From the IMG/VR virus record IMGVR_UViG_3300022413_000001, positions 1-58,954 of that record: a stretch of DNA of 58,954 bases; one strand, written 5' to 3'. Below are positions 23,089 to 58,954 of this stretch, in pieces. A model generated the notes under the pieces. The model searched no databases. It was given only the letters and a program-made list of their open reading frames with translations, and was not told the origin of the DNA. Every line of letters begins with the position of its first letter. Position 1 is the stretch's first letter. The position numbers were made by a program, and so were the translations under genes. The stretch is from a virus.

Positions 23089-23165
23089 TCGGGGTTATAA
23101 ACAATTTTCGCATCCCAATCCCAGAATAGGTGATTAATTTGGAACAACCTATGGACACCCCGACT
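23087..23165. repeat. 9-bp inverted repeat around convergent gene ends
   Basis: AGTCGGGGT at 23087-23095 and ACCCCGACT at 23157-23165 are perfect complements, 61 bases apart. They enclose the junction of the plus tail operon and the minus beta-helix gene. The loop is long, so a terminator is doubtful; they could be the scars of an insertion. Confidence 0.4.
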
Positions 23166-39571: not shown

Positions 39572-39912
39572 TTTCGCTCCTCCTCTTCGGCGTATGGCGC
39601 GACAAAGCTGAGCAATTCCTGCTTTGAGATAGGCCCCTCATGCCCAAAATCGTGCAGATCAAAATCGCAGTAAAAATCGGATAGGCAGTCCCCCAAATCA
39701 AAGTAGTCAGAACGACTTCGGAGCGCGTGACCCTGAATTAAATAGCACTCATTACGCTTGCTCTGCGCCTGAAAATATTTGGCCAGAGGGCAATGAAACA
39801 CAGTAGACTGGAAAGCAATAAAATCATCGGGTTGAGCTTCCAGCCAATCATAGAGTTTGCGAAAATGGAAATTCCCGACAAGAGTTTCCATTTCCCGTTG
39901 AATGTCAGTCAT
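39562..39912 (-). CDS. Hypothetical protein in recT operon
   Basis: 116 residues, acidic and aromatic (FDLGDCLSDFYCDFDLHDFG). Overlaps both neighbours. Not recognised. Confidence 0.55.
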   Translation of the reverse strand: MTDIQREMETLVGNFHFRKLYDWLEAQPDDFIAFQSTVFHCPLAKYFQAQSKRNECYLIQGHALRSRSDYFDLGDCLSDFYCDFDLHDFGHEGPISKQELLSFVAPYAEEEERKCS

Positions 39913-41017
39913 GTTTGCCCTCCTCTACTCTTGGCTTTTGGTGCACGGCAAAATCCTCTACGGCTTCTGACACCATCACTAATATTTTTGGCTCCCGAAT
40001 GTCCTGTAGCGGCGTTGAACCGCCTCCGCATCCCTCCACGATCTTAGCCACCTGCTTCTGCGTCATCTTCAGCTCGCGGACTCTCTCCACGAGTTGCCCG
40101 CAAAATGCCTCGTGGCACTCTTCGTCTGTAAGCTGCACCTCACTCGCCTCGGGCTCTGCGGCGGAGAGGGCTGATTGAGATTCTAGCGCCTCGCCTACCT
40201 CGATGAGTTCTCCAACCAGTTCCCTGCCACGTGTCAGTGTTTCGGTGCGGTCCCCAAACAGATCAGCAACAGCCTGGTTGTAGGCGTCTTCTGAGCCGGC
40301 TGAATTGACGTAGTCAAATTCCTGTGATGACTCCTCGGACGCAAGTGCATCGCGGGCAATCAGATTGATTAACCCCCGGTGCTGGTTCGCAAATGACTGT
40401 AGGGCAGACTTTTTGCACATTTGCGATCTGTGGTCATTCCATGGCCCTGTTACCCCACCGTTGCGGGCAGACCGTTGGTGGCGCTCCAAATCGTCCTGAT
40501 CGAGTACCTGTACCAGTCTCTCCCCATTATTGAGGATCACCATGCAGTAGGCCGCGACAATCTCGCCTCGCCTGGGGATGTTCGGAACGACATGCCGGTA
40601 CTCATCATTCATTCTATCTTGGTAAAATTCATCCTTCTCGCGGACCACATCGCAAACAATTTTTTTTATGCGAGGGGAGTCGGCGAGCAATCGATACCAA
40701 CCCTGGTACTCGACCATCTTGTTAATCAAATAACGATTTTGTTTGTTACTCTTGAAAACGACCAGGCTTACTTCCGTGCCTGGTTCGAGCCCAAGCGATA
40801 CGATATCAATGAGAATCGAGGCGACCTCAACGGGGTCACATTCCTCGATATGCTCAGTGTTCCGCATCACTAATTGGAGACGAGTCAGAAATTTCTGAGG
40901 ATCCAAGGACGGTGGTGCCAGGTCCGGGATAAAAGGGATGATCGTCTCGACAGCATCCGAGACTGTCTGGGGGACATGTGATGTCCACTTTGCAAGTGCG
41001 GTGGTTTGCTCACTCAT
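39905..41017 (-). CDS. recT: RecT-family single-strand annealing protein
   Basis: 370 residues from ATG 41017, chosen because AGGAGATG lies eight bases upstream; the frame is open 51 codons further. The RecT core shows GLEPGTEVSLVVFKS, INKMVEYQGWYRLLAD, AAYCMVILNNGER and GPWNDHRSQMCKKSALQSFAN. The C-terminal 100 residues are a poorly conserved tail (EVGEALESQSALSAAEPEAS). RecT anneals strands in phage recombination, usually with an exonuclease, which I do not recognise here. Confidence 0.85.
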   Translation of the reverse strand: MSEQTTALAKWTSHVPQTVSDAVETIIPFIPDLAPPSLDPQKFLTRLQLVMRNTEHIEECDPVEVASILIDIVSLGLEPGTEVSLVVFKSNKQNRYLINKMVEYQGWYRLLADSPRIKKIVCDVVREKDEFYQDRMNDEYRHVVPNIPRRGEIVAAYCMVILNNGERLVQVLDQDDLERHQRSARNGGVTGPWNDHRSQMCKKSALQSFANQHRGLINLIARDALASEESSQEFDYVNSAGSEDAYNQAVADLFGDRTETLTRGRELVGELIEVGEALESQSALSAAEPEASEVQLTDEECHEAFCGQLVERVRELKMTQKQVAKIVEGCGGGSTPLQDIREPKILVMVSEAVEDFAVHQKPRVEEGKHD

Positions 41018-41050
41018 GATGCATCTCCTGCGGTAGCGATTCTTTTTTTG

Positions 41051-41103
41051 TTGACACATATCAATCTTGTATGTATCATACACATATACAACTTGTGTGT
41101 CAA
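41051..41103. promoter_or_regulatory. Symmetric divergent promoters with overlapping -10 boxes
   Basis: Rightward: TTGACA (41051-41056), 17 bases, TATCAT (41074-41079). Leftward: TTGACA (complement of 41098-41103), 17 bases, TATGAT (complement of 41075-41080). The -10 boxes overlap by five bases, and TGTATG-TAT-CATACA (41068-41082) is a perfect palindrome around them. Only one polymerase can bind at once, so recT and the Ros/MucR-like operon should be mutually exclusive. Confidence 0.88.
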
Positions 41104-41117
41104 GGGGAGAGAACGAC

Positions 41118-41330
41118 ATGTTTAGCGTCATTGTGGATGGCCTTCCAAGCGCAAGGGAGGAGTGGGGCAAGTCAGAAAACCGCTACCGTACCTTGCACCT
41201 CGATCCAGAAGCATTGCGTATTATCTCTGAATGGTGCAACGGGCGAAATCTTCAGATTTCACCGCAAGTGAACCAATTTCTGCGTGCGTTTGCGCGTAAA
41301 ATCACAGAAGAAAAAGGAGGCATGGAATGA
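41118..41330 (+). CDS. Small helical protein before the regulator
   Basis: 70 residues from ATG 41118 (AAGGGGAG upstream). Starts MFSVIVDGLPSAREEWGKSE; helical end with VNQFLRAFARKITEEKGG. It overlaps the next gene. A small DNA-binding protein is possible. Confidence 0.6.
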   Translation: MFSVIVDGLPSAREEWGKSENRYRTLHLDPEALRIISEWCNGRNLQISPQVNQFLRAFARKITEEKGGME

Positions 41331-41803
41331 GTGACTTGGTGTCCCAAACGGCTCTGATCGTGGCCAGCCAGGCGTCCGCGCAAGAAATGGACGCAGGCGA
41401 TATTGTCGATTCCATCAGAGTGGTGCATGCTGCGTTGATGGCGTGCGAGACGGGGAGGGAAACCCAAGAGGCGTTCCTTGAGCGGTTGGGGGAGACGCCA
41501 ATGGCTTCCATTAAAAAGGATGAAATCATCTGCTTGGAGTGTGGACAGCCCTTTAAGCTTCTTGCCAATCGACACTTGGCGTTGCATGGGTTAACGCCGA
41601 GTCAGTACAAAGCAAAATGGCGCATGCGCAAGGGCACCCCCCTGAGTTGTATTGACCTGACAAAAAAACGGCGAGCCTATGCTAAAAAAGCCGAAATGGG
41701 ATGGGCATTGGAGCGCTATCGGAAGGTAAACGGGATCAAGGCAAAACCCAAGGCGGTGACGACGGCAGCCAAAAAGAAGCATGCCAAAAAGAAGCATGCC
41801 TAA
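41327..41803 (+). CDS. Ros/MucR-family transcriptional regulator
   Basis: 158 residues. C69, C72, H83 and H87 form the prokaryotic zinc finger in ICLECGQPFKLLANRHLALH, followed by GLTPSQYKAKWRM, the hallmark of Ros/MucR proteins. The C-terminus is rich in Lys, His and Ala (KKKHAKKKHA). Such proteins bind AT-rich palindromes. The neighbouring palindromic promoter is an obvious candidate target, so it probably switches recT versus its own operon. Confidence 0.82.
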   Translation: MSDLVSQTALIVASQASAQEMDAGDIVDSIRVVHAALMACETGRETQEAFLERLGETPMASIKKDEIICLECGQPFKLLANRHLALHGLTPSQYKAKWRMRKGTPLSCIDLTKKRRAYAKKAEMGWALERYRKVNGIKAKPKAVTTAAKKKHAKKKHA

Positions 41804-41992: not shown

Positions 41993-42231
41993 GCAAATGG
42001 CGAAATTACAACAGCATAGAAATAGTTGAGATGCGCCCCTATCAGTTTGGTGAGAATATGGATGAAATCAGAGTCAATTGGGATTGCGATCATCCACCAA
42101 CTGACCTAGGGATGATCGCACGGAACCCAGAGAACCATAAAGAGCAGTGGTATATTCCGCGTGCACACTTTGAGACAAACTTTGTTCCAGCCAGAATCAT
42201 TCTCGATGCCGAGGAAAGCATCGGGCCGTGA
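41989..42231 (+). CDS. Small hypothetical protein
   Basis: 80 residues from ATG 41989, coupled to the previous gene. MSKWRNYNSIEIVEMRPYQF, then HPPTDLGMIARNPENH; beta-rich. Function unknown. Confidence 0.55.
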   Translation: MSKWRNYNSIEIVEMRPYQFGENMDEIRVNWDCDHPPTDLGMIARNPENHKEQWYIPRAHFETNFVPARIILDAEESIGP

Positions 42232-42338
42232 AAACACTCATCTGGATAGGGATTGGGGTAGTGGGTGTGTCGTGGGTCATTCTTACGCTCATGGCTGTCC
42301 TTTTAGATGGGCCATTGCCCATAGAGGGGTCAAAATGA
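42228..42338 (+). CDS. 36-residue membrane peptide
   Basis: GTG start overlaps the previous stop (GTGA). KTLIWIGIGVVGVSWVILT and LMAVLLDG form one membrane helix. Ends with ATGA overlap to the next gene. Function unknown. Confidence 0.5.
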   Translation: MKTLIWIGIGVVGVSWVILTLMAVLLDGPLPIEGSK

Positions 42339-42547
42339 AACTCATTTCGAAAGAACGGCAGATGCTATTGTTGGATGAATATAATCGACTCGTTTCGGAA
42401 GAACGGCAGATGCTATTGTTGGATGAATACAATCGACTCGTTTCGGAAGAACGGCAGATGCTATTGTTGGATGAATACAATCGACTGGTGAGGTTGATCC
42501 CACAGCCCTGTAGGTGCTGTGGGTATAGAGTTTGTGTTGCGAAGTAG
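42335..42547 (+). CDS. Triplicated coiled-coil protein with Cys tail
   Basis: 70 residues. The 16-residue block S-E-ERQMLLLDEYNRLV appears three times, forming a predicted coiled coil; the tail IPQPCRCCGYRVCVAK has four Cys. Coupled to the previous gene by ATGA. Its length can change by repeat slippage. Confidence 0.6.
   Translation: MKLISKERQMLLLDEYNRLVSEERQMLLLDEYNRLVSEERQMLLLDEYNRLVRLIPQPCRCCGYRVCVAK
42347..42490 (+). repeat. Three 48-bp near-perfect tandem repeats
   Basis: Units at 42347, 42395 and 42443 differ at only a few bases (AAA/GAA, AAT/AAC). The in-frame length keeps the protein readable for any copy number. Confidence 0.9.
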
Positions 42548-42988: not shown

Positions 42989-44614
42989 GTGAAAACCATC
43001 ATTTTTGCTATAATCGTGCTACTCGGTGCGCTTGGCAGCCAATCACTCCCGGTGATGGCTTCCGTTCTGCATGTCTCGCTAACGGGCACTGGCGTGGCAT
43101 GTACATCCGAAGAGCCTTGCACGGTCTCCGCTGCCGTGCGCCAGGCGCGCCGGGGCGACGTAATCCTGTTCCCTCCTGGTGATTTCAAAACCCCATTCGA
43201 CACCCAACATCCAGGCGTGACCTTTGCGGGTGCGCCAAACTTCGGTACTCGCCTGCTCTGGTCAAGTGGCTCGACAGGCAAGCATATTATTGGCATCAAA
43301 CACGACGATACGGTCATCATGGGTCTTGTGGTGGACGGCGAAGGCCGAAGCAACTCGGGTCATGGACTTGTTCGGATTGGTAGTTCCGAAGGCGTACATA
43401 TCCTCGCGAATAAGGTCCTTAACAGTGGTGCTTCACTGATTAACGCAGGGGGTTCATGGAAGGATTCCACCATCCGAAACTTGAAGATTGAGGGAAATTA
43501 TCTCTGCCATTCTGGGCTCGATCGGGATTATGAATATGGTGAAGCGATTTACATCAGCGATTTCGAAAACACTGGCAAAACGAAAGGGGTGGAGATTTTC
43601 TTCAACGAGATTTGTCAATTTGCCGACAATGGTATTGATTTGAAGCCACCCTCTCAAGACGTTAATATTCACGACAACTATTTCCATGACCAGGTCAGGC
43701 GGCCTGGTAAAGAGGGTAATCAGGGGACTCTTGTCTTGCAGGGAAAGGGGCACCGTGTTGAGCGGAACTTGTTTTCGAACGTGGAGGGTGGATCGAGTAT
43801 TCTCAATGTGGCGACAAAAGCAAATATCCGCATCGAAAATAATGTGATCTCGAATGCCAGAGTGGATCTGAAGTTAGAGAAGCCAGCTATCATTCGGGAA
43901 CGGACGGTTGGGAGCGGAACAGATACGATTATAGAAAATAATATTTTCTGCGGCCTGAACTCGAAAAAGGTGGAGCAAAAGCCTGGCCTTGTGGTCCGAG
44001 ACAATCTGGGACTCGGTACGGAAGTGCCAAACTGTACAGCCCGCGCTGAACTGATCAGAGAGACAGTCAAACGCGGCATGGCAGAGGCCCGTGCCCGGGC
44101 GGTTGTACTACCCCAACCCCTGCCTGCTCTCAAAGCCCCTTGGGCGACGTGGGCAGAGCTCGGGGAGAACGTGGTTCGTGTATATATCCAGGCTGAGGGC
44201 GGTGAAAATCCCGAAATGCAACGGCGAACGTATAGAGAAGGATCAGTGAGGTTTGAGCTTGTTGACGGCTCGCCTGTGCCACTCGACCGGGAGAAGCGGG
44301 CGAAGGATGATCATTTGCCGGGTTGGGTCTTCTACCTCAGCCCGCCGTTTCCCAGGCAGCCCATCAAACTGATTGCAGAGGAAGGCTGGATTACAGGACT
44401 CCCCAAGATGGAGCTGATGCTGCCGTTTGCGGGTAAATTGCCTGAACCCGAACCTGTGCCAGAACCTGACCCGGAGCCTGAACCTCGTCCAGAGCCTGTC
44501 CCTGTGCCAGTTCCAGTGGAATTAGAGGGCGGGCAAACGGCCACGTGTACGGGGCGTGTGGACGTGGTCACGATGGAGAATGGGACTACCTTTGTGATGT
44601 GTTTGCCAAACTGA
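42989..44614 (+). CDS. Secreted beta-helix protein with Pro/Glu linker
   Basis: 541 residues; GTG start. A signal peptide (KTIIFAIIVLLGALGSQSLP VMA region) is followed by a right-handed parallel beta-helix of about 300 residues: GIDLKPPSQDVNIHDNYFHD, NVATKANIRIENNVIS and ENNIFCG. Then come a beta domain (PWATWAELGENVVRVYIQ) and a linker of Pro and Glu (PEPEPVPEPDPEPEP), ending in a small Cys-containing part. The helix outline fits pectate-lyase-like proteins, but no catalytic residues are assigned. A linked, secreted modular protein may act on or coat the cell surface. Confidence 0.72.
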   Translation: MKTIIFAIIVLLGALGSQSLPVMASVLHVSLTGTGVACTSEEPCTVSAAVRQARRGDVILFPPGDFKTPFDTQHPGVTFAGAPNFGTRLLWSSGSTGKHIIGIKHDDTVIMGLVVDGEGRSNSGHGLVRIGSSEGVHILANKVLNSGASLINAGGSWKDSTIRNLKIEGNYLCHSGLDRDYEYGEAIYISDFENTGKTKGVEIFFNEICQFADNGIDLKPPSQDVNIHDNYFHDQVRRPGKEGNQGTLVLQGKGHRVERNLFSNVEGGSSILNVATKANIRIENNVISNARVDLKLEKPAIIRERTVGSGTDTIIENNIFCGLNSKKVEQKPGLVVRDNLGLGTEVPNCTARAELIRETVKRGMAEARARAVVLPQPLPALKAPWATWAELGENVVRVYIQAEGGENPEMQRRTYREGSVRFELVDGSPVPLDREKRAKDDHLPGWVFYLSPPFPRQPIKLIAEEGWITGLPKMELMLPFAGKLPEPEPVPEPDPEPEPRPEPVPVPVPVELEGGQTATCTGRVDVVTMENGTTFVMCLPN

Positions 44615-44634
44615 CGAGAACAATCCACCCGATC

Positions 44635-44664
44635 TTGATTAATTTGCGGTTCCTGGCTTATACT
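44635..44664 (+). promoter_or_regulatory. Promoter upstream of reRNA-like region
   Basis: -35 TTGATT (44635-44640), 18-base spacer, -10 TATACT (44659-44664). It points into a 300-base non-coding stretch with strong structure. Confidence 0.5.
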
Positions 44665-44670
44665 GACGGT

Positions 44671-44965
44671 AGGTTGTCCACCTTATCCACGTATCATGTC
44701 CCTTGCGGTGGCAACGCCGCCTACGGTCGGGCAGACCGAACGTCAAGCTTTCCCCAACCCACGCGGTTGGGTAAGAATCCCCTTCCTTCAGGGAGGGGAG
44801 TGTCAACGCCTGCGGGCATACCGATCACGCCGATGTGAACGCGGCCCGCGTCATTCTCGCGGTCGGACTGACCGAGAGTCTAGTCCCCGTGCGCCAGCAG
44901 GGACTCGCCTGCGGACCCGAACGGTCTTCAGGAATCCCCGTCCTAAAGGACGGGGAGGATGTCAA
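44671..44965 (+). ncRNA. Orphan reRNA-like (TnpB guide RNA) locus with two scaffolds
   Basis: Hairpins: GCGG/CCGC (44705-44720), CGGTC/GACCG (44724-44738), CCCAACC/GGTTGGG (44753-44771). Scaffold 1 at 44775-44806 and scaffold 2 at 44932-44965 share the form GAATCCCC-x-TCC-loop-GG...GGGGAG..TGTCAA. Their 8-bp stems (44779-44798, one G-U pair; 44936-44955, perfect) match the 3' end of IS200/IS605 guide RNAs, which precede the guide. Guides would begin at 44807 and 44966. No intact tnpB or iscB is in the window. Confidence 0.65.
44811..44965 (+). pseudogene. tnpB: Remnant of tnpB C-terminus
   Basis: The frame from 44811 reads CGHTDHADVNAARVIL, close to the last RuvC motif and zinc finger region of TnpB (HADVNAA), then runs to GIPVLKDGEDVK, the usual translation of the element's right end. 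Only about 50 residues remain. The rest of the gene is missing, and an upstream copy of the right-end motif precedes it. It lies directly before the 44977 gene. Confidence 0.65.
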
Positions 44966-44976
44966 GGGAGCAGTAT

Positions 44977-46284
44977 ATGCCGCGCCAACGAATGGCAGTT
45001 GCCATTTGCTCATTGACGATTTGGCTTTGCTCGATGGCCCTCCTCTCTGCACAGCCACCCCTGACGGATCAGGAGTGGCATCACAATGTTGCCCTCTCGT
45101 CTGATACCCTTACCATTGCTTGCGCGGCATTTACTCTGCCCGTCGATATCGGTCAAGTCGTCAGTGATGCAGACCCGTTTGTTACCAAGGGGACCGCATC
45201 GCTTACCCTCTCCTCTGCTCACTTTAACAAAATCACGCTACAACCCGAGGCTGGCACGTCCGACACACTCAGCACCATTAGCGGATGTGCGGTGGATGGC
45301 GCTCTCGTGATGCTGACGACAGAGGACTTGGGGGATACGATCACCATTACCGATTCTGGCAATATCAATACCCCTGGTGCGGACGTGGTCATTGATAACC
45401 CAGAGAAGGTTCGTATTCTGGTTTTGATTGACGGAGAGTGGCGCTTTGCGGCGGGAACGGGGTCAGGTGGAGGCGTCGAGGTGGACACTCTGGCCAGCGT
45501 GTTTCTGCGCGGCAATACGGCCTCCCCTGCTCCCTGTGCCACCTACCCTCTCACCATTGACAATGCAGGCGATGACAGCATTAATCTTTGCATTTCGGCT
45601 ACTGAGCAGCCCTCATTTTTGACGACATGCGACGGTGGGCCGTGCAGCTATTTTTTTGATATTCCCAGTGGTGAAATTATGCAATTTTTATACGCTGGTA
45701 CGGTGGGCCAGACGATCGATTCCAGCGGAAATATGACATTGGCTGGCAACATGAAGCGCAGACGGGCACCATGGATTGGGGCCGGTGCCTGGTCCTCGGA
45801 CGGTACGCAGTGTCTCGAATGGGCTGACACGAGCTTTAACGGCGCCCCTCTACGCCCTGCCATCACATGTGCAGACAACGATGCTTCGACGATAACCACC
45901 TCGGCTGTACTCGATAGTAGCTGGGATGCTGGGACATTTGAGGTGCGGGCGTGGATTATTGCCACGGCGGGAACGCCTGCTGGCATTTACCACTTTGATT
46001 GGGCGATCCAATGCCGGGGATCAGGTGAGGTCGCAGATAATACGTGGGGAACGGAACAGTCGACGGTGTGGAATTTGGACGCGGGGGGTGATTGCGGTGG
46101 ATCAGCTTGTCCGCAGTGGGCGGAGCTTCGACAGGTGTCCGCAGCCATTACCGCAGCAGGGGGATGTCAAAAAAATGACCGGATTTCGGTTCGTGGACAA
46201 ATTAACGCAGCAGCGACCACGGCGCCGAATGTCTCTTTTTTGGGTATTAATCTTGGGTTTCTTACTGATAACGTCAGCGATTAA
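44977..46284 (+). CDS. Secreted beta-rich protein, fibre-like
   Basis: 435 residues from ATG 44977 (GGGAG six bases upstream, starting at the scaffold 2 end). Basic start and hydrophobic stretch (MAVAICSLTIWLCSMALLSA) form a signal peptide. The body is beta-rich with Cys pairs (DGGPCSYFFD, LDAGGDCGGSAC). The middle FLYAGTVGQTIDSSGNMTL is typical of trimeric phage fibre or tail-spike sequences. A signal peptide on such a protein is unusual. Confidence 0.6.
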   Translation: MPRQRMAVAICSLTIWLCSMALLSAQPPLTDQEWHHNVALSSDTLTIACAAFTLPVDIGQVVSDADPFVTKGTASLTLSSAHFNKITLQPEAGTSDTLSTISGCAVDGALVMLTTEDLGDTITITDSGNINTPGADVVIDNPEKVRILVLIDGEWRFAAGTGSGGGVEVDTLASVFLRGNTASPAPCATYPLTIDNAGDDSINLCISATEQPSFLTTCDGGPCSYFFDIPSGEIMQFLYAGTVGQTIDSSGNMTLAGNMKRRRAPWIGAGAWSSDGTQCLEWADTSFNGAPLRPAITCADNDASTITTSAVLDSSWDAGTFEVRAWIIATAGTPAGIYHFDWAIQCRGSGEVADNTWGTEQSTVWNLDAGGDCGGSACPQWAELRQVSAAITAAGGCQKNDRISVRGQINAAATTAPNVSFLGINLGFLTDNVSD

Positions 46285-46672
46285 CGCCCAGACGGGGACG
46301 CCGCCAACTGAGGTTGAGCCTCCTCAGCGAACCTATGTGCACGGTTCGCTGGAGAATGAGCAGATCATCATCTATGCCATCTATGATCCGACAACCTATC
46401 AGATTCAGTCATACGTGCTGTGGAATAATACGCAGCAGCGCGCCTCCGCAGATTTGGACATGGCTACGATCCCGGATCTGTCCTTTACTGCCCAGCCAAA
46501 AAAAGGGAAGAGCCGGAATGTAAGGGGAAAAGATTTGTATATGACGCTTCACCCGGAAACGGGGACCACCTACCAGGATCTCAACGTGGTAGGCGTGACG
46601 ATGAAACAAATCGATCCCCGCAGCCGATTCCGCCTCGTACCGGCTCCGTTTCCCTTGCCCAGCCGCCAGTGA
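46175..46672 (+). CDS. Secreted small beta protein
   Basis: 165 residues if ATG 46175 (AGGGGG ten bases upstream) is used; ATG 46229 would give 147 residues. A basic stretch (QQRPRRR) precedes a hydrophobic core (SLFWVLILGFLLITSAINAQ), a signal peptide. The rest includes HGSLENEQIIIYAIYD and DLYMTLHPETGTTY. Overlaps the previous gene's end. Function unknown. Confidence 0.55.
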   Translation: MTGFRFVDKLTQQRPRRRMSLFWVLILGFLLITSAINAQTGTPPTEVEPPQRTYVHGSLENEQIIIYAIYDPTTYQIQSYVLWNNTQQRASADLDMATIPDLSFTAQPKKGKSRNVRGKDLYMTLHPETGTTYQDLNVVGVTMKQIDPRSRFRLVPAPFPLPSRQ

Positions 46673-46682
46673 GGAAACTAAA

Positions 46683-47444
46683 ATGCTCAGTGGATGGCTC
46701 ATTGGATATGTGTTGATGCTCTTGGCGACGGTCGCGTTTGCCCAGCCTGCCGTCGAATCGGTCATTACCTATAAGCAGGATGCCCTACAGACGGCACATA
46801 CCACAGGGACGATTCTGCCAGGAGGTACGGACCGGTCATTAGTGGTGTGCATCACGGCAGAGCTCTCTGGAGGCGTGGACCTGACCGTAAGCTCCATGGC
46901 CTTCAACACCTCCGAAAATTGCTCTCATATCCAAACCTCCCGCACTCAGCCCGGAAGCGCCTTTTTCGCCAGCCATTGGTATTGTCCCGCCGTGAGCGCG
47001 GTTACGGCAGCCGTAGACTATACGCATGCGGAGGCGACAACCTCTACCGCCACGGTGATCGCCCTATCCAATGCCTCGCAAACCAACCCCACGGTTGGGG
47101 ACAATGCTGACTGCCTGGACTGTGCGAATGATGAGATATCGATCGTTCTCACCTCAACCCTGGACAACACGCTAATGCTGACGTGCGCCCACTCGGACAA
47201 CGATAATCACGTACACGCCCAAGGGGCAGGACAAACAGAACATTCCGAGCTCGTGGGCGGCGGTAATGGCCATAAGCACTCGACGAGCTCAGAGCTGAAA
47301 GCTGTAGCTGGTGCGGAAACGTTGGTCACAACGATGACCGCAGGGGCGTTGCCTGCTCGAATGTCCTACACCGCTATCGGTGTGACCGAGGCGGGCGCGG
47401 TGCCTGCTCCGAAGAATAGGAGGCATTCATGGCTGTGGTACTGA
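46683..47444 (+). CDS. Secreted Ser/Thr-rich beta protein
   Basis: 253 residues, GAGGAA upstream. A signal peptide (MLSGWLIGYVLMLLATVAFA) precedes a beta-rich domain with Cys (TAELSGGVDLTVSS, HWYCPAVSAV, DCLDCANDE). Ends with GALPARMSYTAIGVTEAG, a pattern seen in phage and surface proteins. Its end overlaps the next gene's start. Confidence 0.6.
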   Translation: MLSGWLIGYVLMLLATVAFAQPAVESVITYKQDALQTAHTTGTILPGGTDRSLVVCITAELSGGVDLTVSSMAFNTSENCSHIQTSRTQPGSAFFASHWYCPAVSAVTAAVDYTHAEATTSTATVIALSNASQTNPTVGDNADCLDCANDEISIVLTSTLDNTLMLTCAHSDNDNHVHAQGAGQTEHSELVGGGNGHKHSTSSELKAVAGAETLVTTMTAGALPARMSYTAIGVTEAGAVPAPKNRRHSWLWY

Positions 47445-50400
47445 GCCTACTGCTCCTGATTCTGTCGGCAGTGACCAGCTACGCGGCGACTGGTGCCCCT
47501 GCCCCGCCCCTATTTGATGGAGGAACCGGGTCTGCCGCGACGCACTGGGCGACGCCAGGAGGCCCGAACGGGGCAGGAGAGGCGTGCACCGAGGGGGACC
47601 CATGTGGCCTCGATGAAGCGACCAGCCGCGCGTTCGCGAATCACACTGTCATGCTCAAGGACGGCGATTATAATAACGAAGAAATCCGCACTGTCCGCGA
47701 CGGCACAGCAGGCAATCACATCATTTTCAAAGCCGAGAACTCCCGGCTTGCCCGCATCATCACGAACGATCAAAACCCGGTCCTCATCTCTCACGACTAT
47801 ATTACTATCCAGGGCCTCTACATCACCGATAATGCCAATGGTGATGAGGCCGACGCGGGGATTCGCCTCGCGTTTCAGGGCGGGAATCATCATATCATCA
47901 TTGACGACGTCCATATCTTTCACACCGGCGATGTCAATATCCGGGCCACGGGAAACACCACTCAGGACAATGACATTATCATCCGCAACTCCTTATTGGA
48001 CGGATGCGGGTACAACACGACGCAAAACCCGGATCCCAAAAATGACGTAGACGGTGAATGTATCTATATGGGCGGCGGTGGCGCGGGCGGCGTCGACAAC
48101 GTCATGATTTATGACAATGAAATTCGGGATTGGACCTCAAACTCAATCGACATGAAGGCGAATGTTACCGATGTTTGGATCTACGGCAATATCATCCACA
48201 GCTCCGTTGATCATGCGGTCCATGGGGCGCCGTCCGTGGTCGAGGATGGAGCGGTTCATCTCATCGGTTCTGATGTCTATTTTTACAACAATATACTCTT
48301 TAATCTCGATGGCGGTAACCGAGTCTTCCGGACGCGGGCACCAAACAACGGGCAAGTTTATGTTTATAACAACGTCATTTATGATGCCCCAAACGTCAAC
48401 GAGTTTTTCGAAGCCGACTCGGGTAACGGCGATGGGTTCTTGTTTAACAACACGTTGTGGGATTTGAATTCTTACGCGGTTGACGGTACTGGGTATAACC
48501 TCACCGTTAACAACAATCTGGGGGTTGGGACGGGAGATGGTCTGACGATCGCGCAGATGAATGCCAATTGGTTCGTCAACGCGGCGGCTGGGCAGTTTCA
48601 GCTCACGGCCAACGCCACGTTGGCGATCGATGCGGCTGATACTGACCCCTTTTCCGCCACTGATCATGATGGAGCGGCAATCAGTGGAGCAGAGAGGGAT
48701 GTGGGCGCCTACGAGTTCTCTGGGGCGATCACCATGGCTGCACTAAACGCAGCCATTGATGCGGCTGGCCCTGGTGCAGTTATTACGGTTGCCGACAACA
48801 CCTACAACAATCCCGGTGAAATCCTGATTGACCATGACGATAATTGCACGCAGGCGGCACCGTGTACCATCATGGCCGAAACCACAGGGCAGTGGATTAT
48901 CACCGGGAACACGTCCGGATTTAAAGTGAATGGCGATTGGTGGATCATCAAGGGCTTTGTGGTGCAAAACCAAACAGGACATCTCAACAGCGGCTGGATG
49001 GAGATGTACAGCGCCCAAAACGTCGTGGTAGAGGATTGCCGGTTTACGGGTCAGACTGGAGGGTGGGATTTTGCCTTTACCTTCGGCAACGAACCCGACG
49101 TCGAGCAGGGTTTGAACATCACAGTTCAGGACTGCGAGTTTGACAACTGGGCTGGGGCCGACAATTGGATTTTTGACTGGAACGTGCGGAGCAACAACCA
49201 TATCCATACTGGACTCATATGGCGCCGCAATCATATGCACGATCTGAACTTTGACGCCGGGTCTGCCCTGGGTGCGAACAACCTGGGGAATTTCGTAGGC
49301 CGCGCAGGTACAGACTGCGATGGCCTGTTCGAGGATAATATTTGGGAACGCATCTCGGCAGACAACCCTCAAGACAATTGTTTCTTCCACCCGAAGTGCT
49401 CCGGGCTCACCTTTAAAAATGAGATCTTTCGGGACTCTCCAGAATGTGCCATTCGCCTGCGCCAAGGTTATGGTAATGTGCTCGATGGGAACCTGTTCGA
49501 AAACCTCGACGTGGATTTCAACACGGCTCAGGTCTGGGTGTCAGGTGGCGAGCACAAAATCATCAACAACGTATTTAATCCCAAAGGGGGATCGAAGGCG
49601 TGCTTGGAACTGACGGAGGGCTGCATCCTGGCCAGCGCGACAGACGCGGAGTGTTCCACGGAGGCCGATCCAGATAACGACTGTCATTATATTGCGTCAA
49701 GCGGCACGATCATCGCTAACAATACGTTTATCGGCTGCGATACCGAGTCAGTCGATCTCAATGAGGGCGCCAGCTCCAACCAGTGCGATCCAGTCAATGT
49801 CTGCCCACAGCAGAACATCCTGGAAAACAATATCTTGTATCACAACAACGGCGGCGTTGCCTTTCGGGATGCAGGGTGCACTCAGCAAACGGTGGACGAC
49901 AATTTATTTCATCTGGCGGGTGGCGCAACAGTCGGCTTACAGGGTACACGCGCCGACTTTGACAACCCGGATTTTGTCGATGTCGGGGGAGATAATTTCA
50001 ATCTCACCGGGACGTCACCGGCCATTGATGCCGGTCATAATGTAGCGGGAACCACCCTCGATGCGTTCGATATTCTCGGCGTCGCACGACCGCAGGGAGG
50101 AGAGTACGATTTCGGGGCGTATGAGTTCGATGGCGCGGACATGACGCCTCCCTGTGTGCCTCAAAACCTGGTTGCGATGGCGGTTTCCTCGACTCAGATT
50201 GATCTGACCTGGGACGCTTGCCCGGAACCGGATTTACAAGATTATATAGTGCAGAGATGCATCGGATCTGGATGTAGCGATTGGGCAACGGTTGCGGTTC
50301 GGATTCCCCCCTCGTTCAGCAACACCAGCCTGACGCCCGGGCTGGTGCATGTCTACCGGGTGCAGTCACGGGATACGACTGGCAACCTGTCCGCATTCTC

Positions 50401-52069
50401 GGCTACGGCAGAGGCCACCCCGAGCACTTTTTATTATCTTGACCCGGTGTCAGGGGTTGATCAGGCAGGGTGCGGACTGGGTATTGGGGCAGCCGCATGC
50501 GCGACATGGGCGACACTCAATACAGAGGTGACGCCAGCGGCTGGCGATATCGTCTGCCTGCTCAATCCCAGCGGGACGGGCGAGTTGAACGAAAAAATCG
50601 ATCTCACTGCGGCCAATTCTGGCACGTCTGGTAATCCGCTTGTTCTGGATGGGCAATGTGGAGGTCAGTCCGCCAAAGGCATTGTTGATGGAACGGGGGT
50701 CACCATACCGGCATTTGAAGGATTAGTTTTTCTGGCCACGAACACAAATTATGTGCATCTCAAAAACCTGGAAATTCGAGATTCGGATGACGAGCACTGT
50801 GTCCTAGCCTGGGGTATCGGGACGGTAATGGACAATCTGACGGTACATGATTGCGGCGGTCCAACGCAGGGAAGCGGCATCCTTTTCGAAGTTGCCACAT
50901 CACCCACGTTTAACGTGGTGCGAAATTCTGAGATATATAACACATATAAAGGGGGCATTGTTTGCTGGCAGGTTTCAGGTGGGTACTTCTTGTTTGAAAA
51001 GAATGTGGTGCACGATATTGGAGGGAACAGCAATTTTGATGGAATCGAGACAGTAGATTGTGACTACGTGGTGGTGCAGGACAATACGGTTTACTCGGTA
51101 GGGCCATCGGGGGACCTGATCGATATTGGTGGGAATCTTGCGAGTCCTGTTAACCATGTTGTGGTGCAACGCAATCTGGCTTATCGTGGCCCGGTACTCA
51201 CCAATGCGACTGATTTGAAAGTCAACCGAGAACCCGAATTTGTGATTGTGCGGCATAACCGATTCCGGTATGCAGGCATGGAATTTTATGAGCCTGCCTT
51301 AGCAGGTGCAGCAAACAAATTTAAGATGTATCATAACACCATCACCGAGACCGGAATGGACCTTGTCAATCAGAACGGCAGGACTCTGAGGTGGTGGAAC
51401 GGTGACGGGCAGTTTTTCGGCGTCGAGGCCAAAAATAATGCGTTTATTCTATCAGATAATTATCTGATAGAGTTTCAACCCAACAATGACGATGGCAGTT
51501 TTTCGATTATCAAAATGGTCGGGAATGCCTACAAGTTTGGCTTTCGGGGATTTCTCTGGCACGATCCCAGTGGACCCAAGGAATATGCTCCTAATGCGGC
51601 AGGATATGCCGCATGGCGGAGCGAACAGGGGCAGGAACCGGGAGGCGGAGTACTCACCACGCAGACCCTCTCGCAATTATTCGTCAATGTTGCCACTTAC
51701 GATTTTACCCCTACTGCGGTTAGTGATCTGATTGACGCAGGGGTCCCGCTCACTACGACCACTAGTGCGGGAACGGGGACGGATGTCACTGTTGTTGACA
51801 GCACCTATTTTTTTGATGGCTATGGACTCACTCAGGGCGATAGTGTTCAAATCGGTAGCAACCCTCCGGTTCAGATCTCATCAATTAACGAGGGGGCACA
51901 CACCCTGACCCTCGCAACGTCTATCTCGTGGTCAACAGGTGACAGTGTAAATCTGCCGTTCTCTGGTGCTGCTCCGGATATCGGAGCGATTGAGTTTGTG
52001 GGAACCCCTGCACTGCCCGCTGGGGTGGTGATACAGCCAGGCACGTTTAATGGCGGAACATTCAGGTAA
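47429..52069 (+). CDS. Giant secreted multi-domain beta-helix protein
   Basis: 1546 residues, AGGAGG upstream. Signal peptide MAVVLSLLLLILSAVTSYAA. The body holds three beta-helix blocks, each ending in a DVGAYEFSG, DFGAYEFDG or DIGAIEFVG motif (about 435, 900 and 1525). Between blocks two and three, about 905-995, sits a fibronectin type III-like domain (PPCVPQNLVAMAVSS, HVYRVQSRDTTGN). Many Asn-rich coils (DNIWERISADN, NNTFIGC) and Cys pairs suit export. It probably acts outside the cell or on its surface. No catalytic site is assigned. Confidence 0.75.
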   Translation: MAVVLSLLLLILSAVTSYAATGAPAPPLFDGGTGSAATHWATPGGPNGAGEACTEGDPCGLDEATSRAFANHTVMLKDGDYNNEEIRTVRDGTAGNHIIFKAENSRLARIITNDQNPVLISHDYITIQGLYITDNANGDEADAGIRLAFQGGNHHIIIDDVHIFHTGDVNIRATGNTTQDNDIIIRNSLLDGCGYNTTQNPDPKNDVDGECIYMGGGGAGGVDNVMIYDNEIRDWTSNSIDMKANVTDVWIYGNIIHSSVDHAVHGAPSVVEDGAVHLIGSDVYFYNNILFNLDGGNRVFRTRAPNNGQVYVYNNVIYDAPNVNEFFEADSGNGDGFLFNNTLWDLNSYAVDGTGYNLTVNNNLGVGTGDGLTIAQMNANWFVNAAAGQFQLTANATLAIDAADTDPFSATDHDGAAISGAERDVGAYEFSGAITMAALNAAIDAAGPGAVITVADNTYNNPGEILIDHDDNCTQAAPCTIMAETTGQWIITGNTSGFKVNGDWWIIKGFVVQNQTGHLNSGWMEMYSAQNVVVEDCRFTGQTGGWDFAFTFGNEPDVEQGLNITVQDCEFDNWAGADNWIFDWNVRSNNHIHTGLIWRRNHMHDLNFDAGSALGANNLGNFVGRAGTDCDGLFEDNIWERISADNPQDNCFFHPKCSGLTFKNEIFRDSPECAIRLRQGYGNVLDGNLFENLDVDFNTAQVWVSGGEHKIINNVFNPKGGSKACLELTEGCILASATDAECSTEADPDNDCHYIASSGTIIANNTFIGCDTESVDLNEGASSNQCDPVNVCPQQNILENNILYHNNGGVAFRDAGCTQQTVDDNLFHLAGGATVGLQGTRADFDNPDFVDVGGDNFNLTGTSPAIDAGHNVAGTTLDAFDILGVARPQGGEYDFGAYEFDGADMTPPCVPQNLVAMAVSSTQIDLTWDACPEPDLQDYIVQRCIGSGCSDWATVAVRIPPSFSNTSLTPGLVHVYRVQSRDTTGNLSAFSATAEATPSTFYYLDPVSGVDQAGCGLGIGAAACATWATLNTEVTPAAGDIVCLLNPSGTGELNEKIDLTAANSGTSGNPLVLDGQCGGQSAKGIVDGTGVTIPAFEGLVFLATNTNYVHLKNLEIRDSDDEHCVLAWGIGTVMDNLTVHDCGGPTQGSGILFEVATSPTFNVVRNSEIYNTYKGGIVCWQVSGGYFLFEKNVVHDIGGNSNFDGIETVDCDYVVVQDNTVYSVGPSGDLIDIGGNLASPVNHVVVQRNLAYRGPVLTNATDLKVNREPEFVIVRHNRFRYAGMEFYEPALAGAANKFKMYHNTITETGMDLVNQNGRTLRWWNGDGQFFGVEAKNNAFILSDNYLIEFQPNNDDGSFSIIKMVGNAYKFGFRGFLWHDPSGPKEYAPNAAGYAAWRSEQGQEPGGGVLTTQTLSQLFVNVATYDFTPTAVSDLIDAGVPLTTTTSAGTGTDVTVVDSTYFFDGYGLTQGDSVQIGSNPPVQISSINEGAHTLTLATSISWSTGDSVNLPFSGAAPDIGAIEFVGTPALPAGVVIQPGTFNGGTFR

Positions 52070-52076
52070 AGGAAAT

Positions 52077-52523
52077 ATGGAGCGGATTTACTTAACACGG
52101 ATGATTGCTCCTGGTGAGAACCCGCTATCCCTAGGTCCAGAGTTTTATTTTCTTATAGAGAGCAGACGCTGCTTGCTGATGGATTATCAGGCTCAAAATG
52201 GCGGGGATTACGGAATTACATCATTTGATGCTGACAATGGTGAACCTGTTCTTGCCGTTGCGGATTGGCAGGGAAGAGAGCCAAACATTACGCACGAGAG
52301 TATTGTTCCATTACCCACGACAAATGGCAAGGAAATACTCACTGCGGCAAAAATCAATGAGTTTCATACTAAGATATCTGGCAGATTCAGCCTACCTTTG
52401 GATTTAGAGCCAAAGGCAGGAGATGAGATGGAAACATGGCTTTCTTATCTTGTCAGGCTATGCCCCTCGCACGAGGCTGGGAAGGATTTTTCCCTTGGGA
52501 ACTACAGGGTTAGGGCACGTTAA
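52077..52523 (+). CDS. Hypothetical virion-region protein
   Basis: 148 residues from ATG 52077 (AAAGGAA upstream). No signal peptide. MERIYLTRMIAPGENPLSLG, middle VADWQGREPNITHE, end YLVRLCPSHEAGKDF. Its stop overlaps the start of the next fibre gene. Role unknown; possibly a fibre accessory. Confidence 0.6.
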   Translation: MERIYLTRMIAPGENPLSLGPEFYFLIESRRCLLMDYQAQNGGDYGITSFDADNGEPVLAVADWQGREPNITHESIVPLPTTNGKEILTAAKINEFHTKISGRFSLPLDLEPKAGDEMETWLSYLVRLCPSHEAGKDFSLGNYRVRAR

Positions 52524-54844
52524 TGGCTGTCCAAGCAGACAATTTTGACGGCACACTATCAAATTGGACCATCATTGCAGGCAGTTGGTCTACCAGTTCG
52601 GGTAAGGCTGTCCTTTCTGCATCAGAAGGACGATGCCGCTATTCCAACACATCATTGGCCTCGAATAACTATTTCTCAGAGGTGGAATGGGACTTTGCAA
52701 ACGTGGTCAATAACCAGGGGGGTGGCGCAGCAGCCCGCATCAACACAGGGGGCGCAGACACATTTTATGTGGCAGAGTGGCGATTTCAGTCTGGTGGAAA
52801 CAAACGGTATCTAAGCAAGTTTGTAAATGGGACACGCACGATATTCCACACGTCTGATCAAAATATGTCAACAGGCGATCTGCAGCGTGTTATTTGTAAT
52901 GGGACGACAATTAGCGCACAGTGGAATGGATCACAATATGCCAGCGTAACCGATAGCGCTATTGCTTCTGGCGCAGCGGGTATGTATGGCGTAGCCCCAA
53001 GCGGGGGGCGCTTTATCAGATTCGAGAGGTGGAATGCTGCCGACCTTGCGGCTCCCCCGACAGTGCGTACCCTTTCCATGCCTATCACGATTTCCAGCGT
53101 GACGCCAGCCGTCGATTCGATTCTGGACCGCAACCTTTCTATGATTTTTTTGTCTCAAATTTCCGCCACTCCTAGCGTAGACGCTTTGCTCGAGCGTGGC
53201 CTGTCTGCTCCCTTTACCATTGACAGTACCACACCTGCCATAGACGCGGTATTGTTACGAGGATTGTCCATGTCCTTGACTATGGACAGCTCAACGCCCA
53301 GCGTTGATAGCATCCTGGACAGAGAGCTATCTCTGAGTATGGCGCTTGCAAGTTTTACTCCCGATATCGACATTGACCTGAGCGGGTCCAGGTTGCTGGC
53401 TATGCCTATCACGATTTCCAGCGTGACGCCAGCCGTCGATTCGATTCTGGACCGCAACCTTTCCATGGTCTTTTTGTCTCAAATTTCCGCCACTCCTGTT
53501 GTCGACATTACACTGACTCGCAGCTTATCGGCGCCCTTTACCATCTCAAGCACCACACCTGCCATAGATGCGGTATTGGAGGGTAGCCAAACGGGTATTT
53601 GGGTTAGAACCGTTCAGATGGCCGCAAGAACCACAGTCGGCACACAAGATTTTACCGTTCCAGGGGTTGGAACGCCGAAGGGCTATCTTGCGTTTGCGAC
53701 ATTTGGAGTGAGCAATGGAAGCGTGGTGCCACATGCTATGCTCGCCATTGGAGCAGGTGATGGAACTCGACAATGGGCGTGCCATGGGATAACTGAGCAC
53801 GGACAGATTCTCTCCGATAGTTACCGATGGGGAACGCGGGATGCGTCGATTATCATACCGGACCTCGATGGGTTGGTAGAAGGCAAAGCGAATTTTGTTT
53901 CATTTATCCCAGATGGCATCCAGTTCAATTGGGGACAAGCTCCCACTTCTGCCGTATTGGTGACAATCGTATTGTTTGGAGGTGATAACCTCAGTGTCTA
54001 TGCAGCCGACGATAGCCATACCGGTGCACAAGATGCGTCACAAAGCTATAATGCACCCGGATTTGAGCCTGATTTGCTGATTGTGTCTGGGAATACGTCA
54101 GATTTTGACAATACAGGCACCAATGATTACCGAATAAATCTGGGCTTTAGTTCAAATACGAATCCGATCAGACAAGGTTGCGTGTTTGTAATGGACGACT
54201 CGTCGATAAGCCCTACGGAGTCTTTCGTTCATGCCCACAACAATCGGGTCTATGAAAGCGAATATGATACTGGCTCACGATCGTTGGAAGTCACTGCTTA
54301 CGGGGCAAGTGGTTTTGACTTGACGAAAAGAGGGACATCGATAGCCCGTTTTTTCGGTTATTTAGCGTTAAATATGGGCGGCACTGTGGGGGTTGATGTT
54401 CGAGCATTCACCTCTCCAATTAGCCCGGGTAATTTCTCTAGAACGGATTTTGGTTTCAAGCCTCAATTTGTGATGATCATACCGAGCTTTGTCGATACCC
54501 TGAATAGCATTTTGACTACTGAGGCAGCGGGAGCAGGATCACACGCTGTAGCGGTCGGTGATGCCACCAATCAATACTGTATGAGTATAGCGACAGAAGA
54601 TGATCAGCCTACATCGGATACTCAATCCTTAACTGACAACCAATTAATTAACGTGGCGAGAGGTGATGGGAGCCAGGTGTTTGATGCGTCTCTCAGCACA
54701 TTTGATGCCGCAGGTTATACCCTGAATTTTGCAGTTACGGACGGGACTGCGCGTCATTGGTTTGAATTGGGAATTGAGGAGGATACGGCACCCGTTGTTG
54801 GACCTCATGTCGGATCACTGAGCACAACCGGAGTGGGTCGGTAA
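52523..54844 (+). CDS. Modular tail fibre with TPxxD repeats
   Basis: 773 residues, no signal peptide. Residues 1-175 form a jelly-roll-like (LamG-type) domain (DNFDGTLSNWTIIAGSW, FYVAEWRFQSGGNKR). About 180-352 is an array of TPxxD repeats shared with the 58198 gene, part of it base-identical. The last 420 residues are a large beta domain (VPGVGTPKGYLAFATFG, FEPDLLIVSGN, GFKPQFVMIIPSFVDTL) like many phage tail-fibre heads. It looks like a mosaic fibre in which repeats have been exchanged with its paralogue. Confidence 0.75.
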   Translation: MAVQADNFDGTLSNWTIIAGSWSTSSGKAVLSASEGRCRYSNTSLASNNYFSEVEWDFANVVNNQGGGAAARINTGGADTFYVAEWRFQSGGNKRYLSKFVNGTRTIFHTSDQNMSTGDLQRVICNGTTISAQWNGSQYASVTDSAIASGAAGMYGVAPSGGRFIRFERWNAADLAAPPTVRTLSMPITISSVTPAVDSILDRNLSMIFLSQISATPSVDALLERGLSAPFTIDSTTPAIDAVLLRGLSMSLTMDSSTPSVDSILDRELSLSMALASFTPDIDIDLSGSRLLAMPITISSVTPAVDSILDRNLSMVFLSQISATPVVDITLTRSLSAPFTISSTTPAIDAVLEGSQTGIWVRTVQMAARTTVGTQDFTVPGVGTPKGYLAFATFGVSNGSVVPHAMLAIGAGDGTRQWACHGITEHGQILSDSYRWGTRDASIIIPDLDGLVEGKANFVSFIPDGIQFNWGQAPTSAVLVTIVLFGGDNLSVYAADDSHTGAQDASQSYNAPGFEPDLLIVSGNTSDFDNTGTNDYRINLGFSSNTNPIRQGCVFVMDDSSISPTESFVHAHNNRVYESEYDTGSRSLEVTAYGASGFDLTKRGTSIARFFGYLALNMGGTVGVDVRAFTSPISPGNFSRTDFGFKPQFVMIIPSFVDTLNSILTTEAAGAGSHAVAVGDATNQYCMSIATEDDQPTSDTQSLTDNQLINVARGDGSQVFDASLSTFDAAGYTLNFAVTDGTARHWFELGIEEDTAPVVGPHVGSLSTTGVGR
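53080..53575 (+). repeat. TPxxD repeat DNA shared with the 58198/1 gene
   Basis: 53281-53405 equals 1-125. 53080-53280 matches 58716-58916 with few differences (for example GGC versus GAC near 53206). The unit at 53080-53168 recurs at 53402-53490. This points to recent duplication or gene conversion between two fibre genes. Confidence 0.85.
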
Positions 54845-56433
54845 TGGCAATATTTCAGAAGTTTTTGCTTCCCATGTTGATTGTGCTAGTAGTCACTCTC
54901 CCTCGCTGGGTGGAGGCACAATCCTGTACCCATTACGCAGCAGACAGCCCACAAGGAGTGGGTGACCATACGAGTGAGGCCAATGCTGGAGATGTCAGCA
55001 CGGCATGGGCGAAACTTTCGGCGGGTGATACGCTATGCTTAGTAGATGGGACGTATACGGGTGCGAATTCGATGATTGAGCCGCCCAATGGCATGAGCGG
55101 AACAGCGGGGAATCCTATTACGGTGAAAGCACTGAATGATGGTGGGGCAACACTGAATGGCCAGTTTGCACGTCAACCAGTTGCACTCTATCAAAATGAT
55201 TGGTTTGTTCTAGAGGGATTCAATGCCCATAGCTCAAATAATTCCGTAGTACATATTGCTGGTCCAAGCGGAGGAGGCAATGGATCTGATAATGTGATAG
55301 TTCGTCGTGTAGTGGCGTGGGATGCGCCCTTTGATAGCAACTCTCAAGTATTTGATGTCGATAACAGTCAGGGTGTACTTCTTGAAGATGTAGCTGGGTT
55401 TGGTAGTGGAAGAAAGACATTTGTAGTATATAGATCTGACGATGTAATACTTAGGCGTGCATGGGGTCGCTGGGAGGGATCAAATAGGTCCGGTCCCAAG
55501 GAGGCATTTAGCTTAAGTTACCGATCCTATGATGTTATAGGGGAAAACCTTATTGCGTTTTGGACAGGCGGTTTGGGCGGCGTAACGGATCAACTTTATG
55601 GTGCATTGTCAAGAGATCGATTGGAAGCAAACGATGATCCGTGGGAAGACCCAGATCGTAATTTTGCCGGCAATGTCAAGTTACTCGGAAGCATCGCGTA
55701 TGTTCCTGCAACTGCTTCTCCAAGCCCTGGTTCAGATTTTGGAGGCGTGTTTCTTGGTGGTATGGATTTCCTTGAACTTATTGACGTTGTTTCTTATGTA
55801 AACAAGGCGACTACTAATACTTTTTCATTAGTTAATTGTGGAAGCTGTACCGGCCCGGTGGATAATTTAACCGCTTCTAATCTTACGGCGATTGGAGGAG
55901 ACGGAAGTGCACGTATTGAATCTCAATGGGCGATAAACAACATAGATGAGCGTGCGACAGTAGCACAAGCTGCAAATATATATACCAATCCAACAGGATC
56001 ACGAATATGCTACAATTTTGTTGACGGCACGCTTACCTCCGAACCCCTATGGCCCTGGCCGATGAATCAGCGTATTATTGACGCCATGACTGATGCAGGT
56101 GTGACACCGGTCGATGTGACGGCGACGATTGAGAGTATTTTTGGAACGATTCCAGCAGAATGCCGAAGTGATGCGCAGGGCATGAATCCGGGTTTTGCTG
56201 GCCCTGCAACAGGTCTGGGATTGGCGGGAGCAGGGACGCCTGCCTTTCCTGGGATCTCTACAGGGGTCGGATTGACGGGAGCAGGGACGCCTGCTTTCCC
56301 TGGGCCGTCCACGGGCATCAGCCTGACGGCCTCCGCCACACCTCCCGCGCCTGGGAATTCGACAGGATTAAGCTTGACCGGGAATGCAACCCCGCCGTTT
56401 CCAGGCATACCAACAGGATTGGGTTTCCCATGA
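54844..56433 (+). CDS. Secreted beta-helix protein with Gly/Pro repeats
   Basis: 529 residues; its start overlaps the previous stop (TAATG). A signal peptide (FLLPMLIVLVVTLPRWVEA) precedes CTHYAADSPQGVGDHTS and a pectate-lyase-like beta-helix (DTLCLVDGTYTGANSM, DNVIVRRVVAWD, VILRRAWGR). The last 85 residues are four 18-residue repeats with G-x-G/S-L-x-G/A-x-A/G-TP-x-FPG, probably a flexible stalk. No active site is assigned. Confidence 0.72.
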   Translation: MAIFQKFLLPMLIVLVVTLPRWVEAQSCTHYAADSPQGVGDHTSEANAGDVSTAWAKLSAGDTLCLVDGTYTGANSMIEPPNGMSGTAGNPITVKALNDGGATLNGQFARQPVALYQNDWFVLEGFNAHSSNNSVVHIAGPSGGGNGSDNVIVRRVVAWDAPFDSNSQVFDVDNSQGVLLEDVAGFGSGRKTFVVYRSDDVILRRAWGRWEGSNRSGPKEAFSLSYRSYDVIGENLIAFWTGGLGGVTDQLYGALSRDRLEANDDPWEDPDRNFAGNVKLLGSIAYVPATASPSPGSDFGGVFLGGMDFLELIDVVSYVNKATTNTFSLVNCGSCTGPVDNLTASNLTAIGGDGSARIESQWAINNIDERATVAQAANIYTNPTGSRICYNFVDGTLTSEPLWPWPMNQRIIDAMTDAGVTPVDVTATIESIFGTIPAECRSDAQGMNPGFAGPATGLGLAGAGTPAFPGISTGVGLTGAGTPAFPGPSTGISLTASATPPAPGNSTGLSLTGNATPPFPGIPTGLGFP

Positions 56434-58197: not shown

Positions 58198-58954
58198 ATG
58201 CCAGCCGCTGCATGGTTACAAAATTTACAGTTGTCTGTCTCGGCTGTGCGTACCCTTTCCATGTCAATTACGATCACCAGCGTGACGCCAGCCGTCGATT
58301 CGATTCTGGAACGCAGGCTCTCGGCGTCCTTTTCTGCTCCTAGCGTAACGCCCAGTGTTGACAGTATCGTTGATAGGGCCTTGTCTTTAAACATTACCAT
58401 CCCGAGTCTTACCCCAGATATTGATATTTCTATCTCCGGCCTTCGCGAGCTGACCCTTTCACTATCCATTTCCAGCGTGACTCCAGATACAGATGCCATT
58501 CTCGAACGCGCCTTGTCCGGTTCGTTTTCCATCTCCAGCGTGACTCCAGATGTTGACCAGATATTGGAACGCGCTCTTGCCTTGGCCCTTAATACGATAA
58601 GTACCACGCCATCCGTATCTGCTATTCTGGACCGTGCCTTGTCGGCGACGGTGTCTATTGCAAGTTTTACTCCCGATATCGACATTGATTTGAGTGGGTC
58701 CAGGTTGCTGGCTATGCCTATCACGATTTCCAGCGTGACGCCAGTCGTCGATTCGATTCTGGACCGCAACCTTTCCATGGTCTTTTTGTCTCAAATTTCC
58801 GCCACTCCTAGCGTAGACGCTTTGCTCGAGCGTGACCTGTCTGCTCCCTTTACCATTGACAGTACCACACCTGCCATAGACGCGGTATTGTTACGAGGAT
58901 TGTCCATGTCCTTGACTATGGACAGCTCAACGCCCAGCGTTGATAGCATCCTGG
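58198..58954 (+). CDS. N-terminal part of TPxxD-repeat fibre protein (partial)
   Basis: ATG 58198 opens MPAAAWLQNLQLSVSAVRTL, then about twelve TPxxD repeats to the window edge. The phase equals that of the 1-787 part when the 38-base overlap is merged, giving a 501-residue protein with no long non-repeat region. Repeat units are shared with the 52523 gene. A short anchor at the start and a different tail at the end suggest a thin fibre stalk. Confidence 0.75.
   Translation, partial: MPAAAWLQNLQLSVSAVRTLSMSITITSVTPAVDSILERRLSASFSAPSVTPSVDSIVDRALSLNITIPSLTPDIDISISGLRELTLSLSISSVTPDTDAILERALSGSFSISSVTPDVDQILERALALALNTISTTPSVSAILDRALSATVSIASFTPDIDIDLSGSRLLAMPITISSVTPVVDSILDRNLSMVFLSQISATPSVDALLERDLSAPFTIDSTTPAIDAVLLRGLSMSLTMDSSTPSVDSIL
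58917..58954. repeat. Terminal direct repeat, copy 2 (matches 1-38)
   Basis: Identical to the first 38 bases; see the partner entry. Also present at 53280-53318, inside the related fibre gene. Confidence 0.85.

Follow-up and report, generated by a model that had tools for sequence, protein, structure and literature searches.

A probable scar of two fused IS200/IS605 elements, with two TnpB-type right ends, between genes of a tailed phage

Positions 44710-44806 and 44869-44965 of a tailed-phage record (IMG/VR virus record IMGVR_UViG_3300022413_000001, of which the whole stretch of 58,954 nucleotides analyzed is called the window) are genuine IS200/IS605 right ends of the TnpB type, that is, reRNA scaffolds. 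A remnant of tnpB is continuous with the second of these ends (RE2), the first end (RE1) is joined exactly to the start of that remnant, and neither a nuclease nor a Y1 transposase was found in the record. We consider it very probable that the roughly 330 bp that hold these parts, in an intergenic gap, are the scar of two fused elements, likely without a dedicated function. A first-pass annotation of the region had proposed a stand-alone guide-RNA locus and had mentioned two fused element ends as an alternative; it is the alternative that matches the anatomy seen. The parts of the locus are listed below.

44635..44664 (+), promoter-like TTGATT-18-TATACT; consensus match only (9/12)
44640..44709 (+), probable rest of element 1, either the decayed 3' region of a tnpB or hairpins of the 5' scaffold; no left end or left boundary of element 1 was recognized here
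44710..44806 (+), RE1, right end of element 1, 3' part of a reRNA scaffold; 36.5 bits with covariance model R1
44778-44799 (+), terminal stem of RE1, with the element end TCAA at 44803-44806
44802..44808 (+), junction of RE1 GTCAA with tnpB2 codons (GTCAA, then C GCC TGC GGG), from comparison with the L002 contig described below and other tnpB sequences
44807..44826 (+), would-be guide 1, CGCCTGCGGGCATACCGATC, equal to tnpB codons for ACGHTD
44807..44965 (+), 5'-truncated tnpB of element 2 (tnpB2; last ~53 codons, from CGHTDHADVNAA onward) leading into RE2; from PF07282, identity to L002 and R1
44935-44956 (+), terminal stem of RE2, with TCAA at 44962-44965
44966..44985 (+), would-be guide 2, GGGAGCAGTATATGCCGCGC, made up of a Shine-Dalgarno-like GGGAG and the ATG at 44977 of the next phage gene
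44977..46284 (+), downstream phage gene of no known family, with an N-terminus that is signal-peptide-like by eye

Two right ends and a tnpB remnant

For the covariance model R1, 19 TnpB-element right ends were collected from bacterial genomes, plasmids and viral contigs, and the window sequence was excluded. Run over the 59-kb record, R1 recovered both RE1 (36.5 bits, E 1.3e-7) and RE2 (44.2 bits, E 1.9e-9); its only other matches were the second palindrome read on the reverse strand and chance matches with E>1. As it contains just four base pairs, R1 mainly models the sequence of the terminal ~35 nt, so these matches prove the right ends and not the full scaffold fold. The two IS200/IS605 folds noticed at first pass are thus borne out, and of the covariance searches that had been suggested as a check, the one with the reRNA right-end model was positive at both ends, while a search of the region against Rfam gave nothing at gathering score. 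The best sub-threshold Rfam matches were HgcC (E 0.005) and sot0042 at both ends (E 0.07 and 0.19).

Both hairpins have the form (G)AATCCCC...GGGGA...GTCAA and close a terminal stem of 9 bp. The stem of RE1 (44778-44786/44791-44799) has a predicted energy of -16.2 kcal/mol, which 4 of 200 shuffles equalled, and that of RE2 (44935-44943/44948-44956) one of -18.3 kcal/mol, equalled by none of 200. The stems had originally been placed at 44779-44798 and 44936-44955, within 1 nt of these coordinates, and the positions of the TCAA ends give the guide starts named then (44807 and 44966). The whole region folds better than all of 100 shuffles (z -3.6), and 44660-44806 by itself has a z of -2.4. In 19 right ends, the two window copies among them (alignment A3), the terminal stem has a covariation score of 0.358, against 0.097 +/- 0.026 after shuffling; double changes occur in 5 of its 9 pairs and 96.5% of cells are paired. 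At the sixth pair the two window copies themselves differ by a compensating change (U-A versus G-C). Since the stem covaries across these 19 ends, the window hairpins can be taken as the hairpins of the family. The IS200/IS605 terminal hairpin also serves the transposase as DNA, and the covariation therefore supports a structured end and not, by itself, an RNA function.

Ahead of RE2, the codons of ACGHTDHADVNAARVILAVGLTESLVPVRQQGLACGPERSSGIPVLKDGEDVK precede the right end and run into it. Their translation and a PF07282 match at 44790-44855 (profile positions 39-60, in the C-terminal third of the family; E 3.4e-5) show that the tnpB C-terminal remnant described between the two folds is real; the match lies under the curated cut-off because only the end of tnpB remains. 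The closest relative found, 85% identical and with an in-frame length difference of 21 nt, is a tnpB 3' end carried by a contig of a Gemmatimonadales MAG (L002). Of the seven codons that differ within the conserved core, six carry synonymous changes, as read by eye from the alignment, and the sole replacement (VNAA to VNTA) is one in which, again by eye, L002 departs from the family consensus and the window does not. As the core differences are almost all synonymous, the truncation of tnpB2 looks recent, as though a protein gene had been whole until a short time ago, and the remnant does not resemble a sequence long kept as RNA alone. In front of RE1, no tnpB homology was detected leading into the right end.

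The statement that no nuclease is encoded here extends to the whole record, in which neither OrfB_IS605 (PF01385) nor Y1_Tnp (PF01797) was found and PF07282 occurs only as the remnant. A second PF07282 match, at 53603-53707 on the minus strand, scores 12.6 bits and was taken as chance. PF07282 and PF01385 likewise gave no TldR-like or other TnpB-family protein in the record, though these models could miss one that is very divergent. There is thus no complete IS200/IS605 element, as neither tnpB nor tnpA lies between a left and a right end.

Relatives of the two ends differ. Right ends on Pantoea, Klebsiella, Edwardsiella and Lelliottia plasmids share 94-97% identity with the RE1 hairpin over 34-38 nt, and those in Edwardsiella (L098) and Klebsiella (L100) follow intact, annotated TnpB genes. 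For RE2, the hairpin was seen downstream of an intact TnpB gene in each of two viral contigs (L093 and L094). Beyond the terminal ~35 nt of element 1, no homology was found in plasmids, E. coli genomes or the sampled genomes. The parent of element 1 was sought in E. coli, plasmids, and Gemmatimonadota and Pseudomonadota samples with a 34-nt exact pattern and a 22-nt pattern from the 5' part, which returned hairpin-level matches or none. In IMG/VR, no relatives of the phage were found by terminase, upstream gene or downstream gene.

Origin of the locus and frequency of orphan ends

Element 1 ends in GTGTCAA, and the very next base begins tnpB2 (C GCC TGC GGG CAT, read as A C G H). Such an exact join at the RE1 terminus is expected if element 1 inserted into tnpB2 or if a deletion ended at RE1, and it makes guide 1 simply tnpB coding sequence. 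In the history that we favor, element 2, with a tnpB related to that of L002, would have lain immediately upstream of the 44977 gene, and element 1 would have inserted into the 3' part of tnpB2 or been joined to it by deletion. Core deletions would then have taken away the two left ends, any tnpA and the bulk of each tnpB gene, so that RE1, joined to the final ~53 codons of tnpB2, and RE2 survived. We infer this order of insertion and deletion because the parent of element 1 is known only for the terminal ~35 nt and neither a left end nor an empty site was seen. Any transcription would probably be readthrough from upstream genes on the same strand, giving an RNA that would still fold as two reRNA-like scaffolds, and the locus most likely has no dedicated role beyond that of a 5' leader of the 44977 gene. 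Counting against a scar, both retained pieces are close to the length of a mature reRNA, which is ~150 nt (PMC8612924), and selection for RNA could also explain this. The better-than-shuffled fold of the whole region likewise speaks against a scar.

Leftover ends of this kind are common. Among 60 Pseudomonadota genomes, R1 matched 25 distinct places in eight, the two strands of one palindrome being counted as one place. Of these places, 12 adjoin a TnpB match of 120 aa or longer, three just a remnant no longer than 70 aa and ten no TnpB, with TnpB presence judged by tblastn with ten reference TnpBs, so that divergent TnpBs could be missed. The sample is small, with 12 of the 25 places coming from one genome and some matching the terminal hairpin only. 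On these counts 13 of the 25 places have no TnpB or just a short remnant, and the phage locus should therefore most likely be read as an ordinary scar and not as a guide-RNA gene that works. With roughly half of the sampled ends lacking a nuclease, an orphan scaffold by itself does not show a guide-RNA gene. Two of the places (L127 and L135) share the layout of element 2, in which the last 30-40 codons are followed by the right end. Apparent tandem ends in one genome (G406; L118/L124) are in fact bare hairpins ~290 nt apart and not full scaffolds. Two places in an Allochromatium genome (L114 and L122; G004) are PATE-like, with a second terminal-type hairpin 130-300 nt from the scaffold end; no TnpB was found at either, and they are good examples of guide scaffolds without a nuclease.

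Known systems resemble the phage locus in part. As in ISDra2-type TnpB right ends and their reRNA (omegaRNA), the tnpB 3' end leads into a G+C-rich hairpin and then TCAA, with the guide position immediately downstream (PMC8612924, PMC10278001). Unlike those ends, the phage tnpB is cut to its last ~53 codons, the other end has no recognized tnpB, left ends are missing and the two ends are fused. In Haloquadratum, repeat-mediated core deletion has produced terminal-only IS605 elements, and IS605 elements and PATEs have inserted into one another (PMC3119063). The phage ends are similarly core-deleted and without transposase, as these often nested elements are, but the Haloquadratum elements keep both terminal palindromes or a left-right fusion (PMC3119063), whereas the phage has two fused right ends and no recognized left end. 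If inert, the locus is a clean example of phage IS200/IS605 insertions decaying to bare guide scaffolds; if active, the phage would supply guides without a nuclease.

Alternative explanations

As first proposed, the phage would express one or two reRNAs in trans, and a host TnpB or a nuclease-dead relative (TldR) would be aimed at sequences matching the guides. Both scaffolds do keep an intact terminal stem and TCAA end, and TnpB and reRNA supplied from separate plasmids assemble into an active complex in the laboratory (PMC8612924). Phages also use TldR guides, and at a tldR locus with a frameshifted protein, continued supply of the guide RNA in trans has been suggested (PMC13418256). The phage context and a TnpB-type scaffold with a potential guide are shared with these phage-encoded RNA-guided repressors (PMC13418256); the record, however, has no tldR gene, and its guides match only the flank. 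Guide 1 is made of tnpB codons and guide 2 of the next gene, and since the guide of an un-exapted insertion is by definition its flank (PMC8612924), this is the expected state of such insertions. No second site for either guide exists within the window. AmaTnpB obtains its guide RNA from its own mRNA through 5' processing (PMC10278001), and use of the phage scaffolds would accordingly require a cognate protein. The promoter ascribed to the locus does exist as a 9/12 consensus match, but TTGATT-18-TATACT was found once against 0.3 +/- 0.6 times in shuffles of the region, a chance level that makes it no evidence of a promoter; no promoter stands out from chance in the region, nor was a terminator found. 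With guides equal to flanks and ends without TnpB about as common as ends with it, the claim of a guide RNA kept by the phage is not upheld, and we regard this reading as quite unlikely.

A narrower version, in which a tandem, nuclease-free guide locus aims guide 1 at the zinc-ribbon codons of tnpB and so turns a compatible host TnpB on tnpB genes, is highly improbable. The 20-mer of guide 1 is matched with one mismatch in two actinobacterial tnpB loci (L035 and L036), which is explained by the conservation of tnpB codons. Of the foreign matches for which a search had been recommended, those to the initial 16 nt of guide 1 lie in 13 viral contigs; they are scattered, in no case does the tnpB motif follow, and a role of guide 1 against TnpB or other phages was rejected.

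Regulation of the downstream gene is an unlikely explanation as well. The RE2 hairpin would here act as the leader of the 44977 gene, protecting its mRNA or tuning its translation. Between the end of the stem at 44935-44956 and GGGAG (44966-44970) lie 9 nt, a further 6 nt separate GGGAG from the ATG at 44977, and 44925-45010 folds well (z -3.2, with 1 of 200 shuffles as good). The same geometry would arise from any insertion at this place, however, the hairpin occurs behind tnpB genes generally, and the predicted fold has no clear switch around GGGAG. That one element had its right end tandemly duplicated, instead of two different elements being involved, is very unlikely: the two ends are of the same family and in direct orientation, but they differ in sequence (GAATCCCCTTCCTTCAGGGAGGGGAGTGTCAA versus GAATCCCCGTCCTAAAGGACGGGGAGGATGTCAA), their upstream parts are unrelated, their nearest hairpin relatives are not the same, and a direct-repeat search found none, which rules against duplication. 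We thus keep the scar of two fused elements as the preferred explanation.

Other features of the record

At the second ATG of the 44977 gene lies a perfect palindrome, AATGGCAGTTGCCATT (44991-45006), a possible operator or hairpin. By eye, signal-peptide-like starts are present in the plus-strand genes at 42989, 44977, 46683, 47429 and 54844 (region 42989-56433) and in the minus-strand gene 24804-23149, whose 551-aa product (23149-24804, minus strand) is a right-handed beta-helix protein (PF13229). Such a set of apparently secreted proteins is unusual for a phage. Bases 1-38 of the record are identical to 58917-58954 (TATGGACAGCTCAACGCCCAGCGTTGATAGCATCCTGG) and the first 30 also occur at 53281, so the record may represent a circular genome, or its assembly may have stopped at a repeat. 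A ROS/MUCR-type zinc-finger transcription regulator (PF05443, E 7.9e-33) is encoded at 41327-41803 on the plus strand and adjoins a RecT gene at 39905-41170 on the minus strand. At about 42350-42500 (+), within the open reading frame 42161-42547, the unit ERQMLLLDEYNRLVS is present in three tandem copies.
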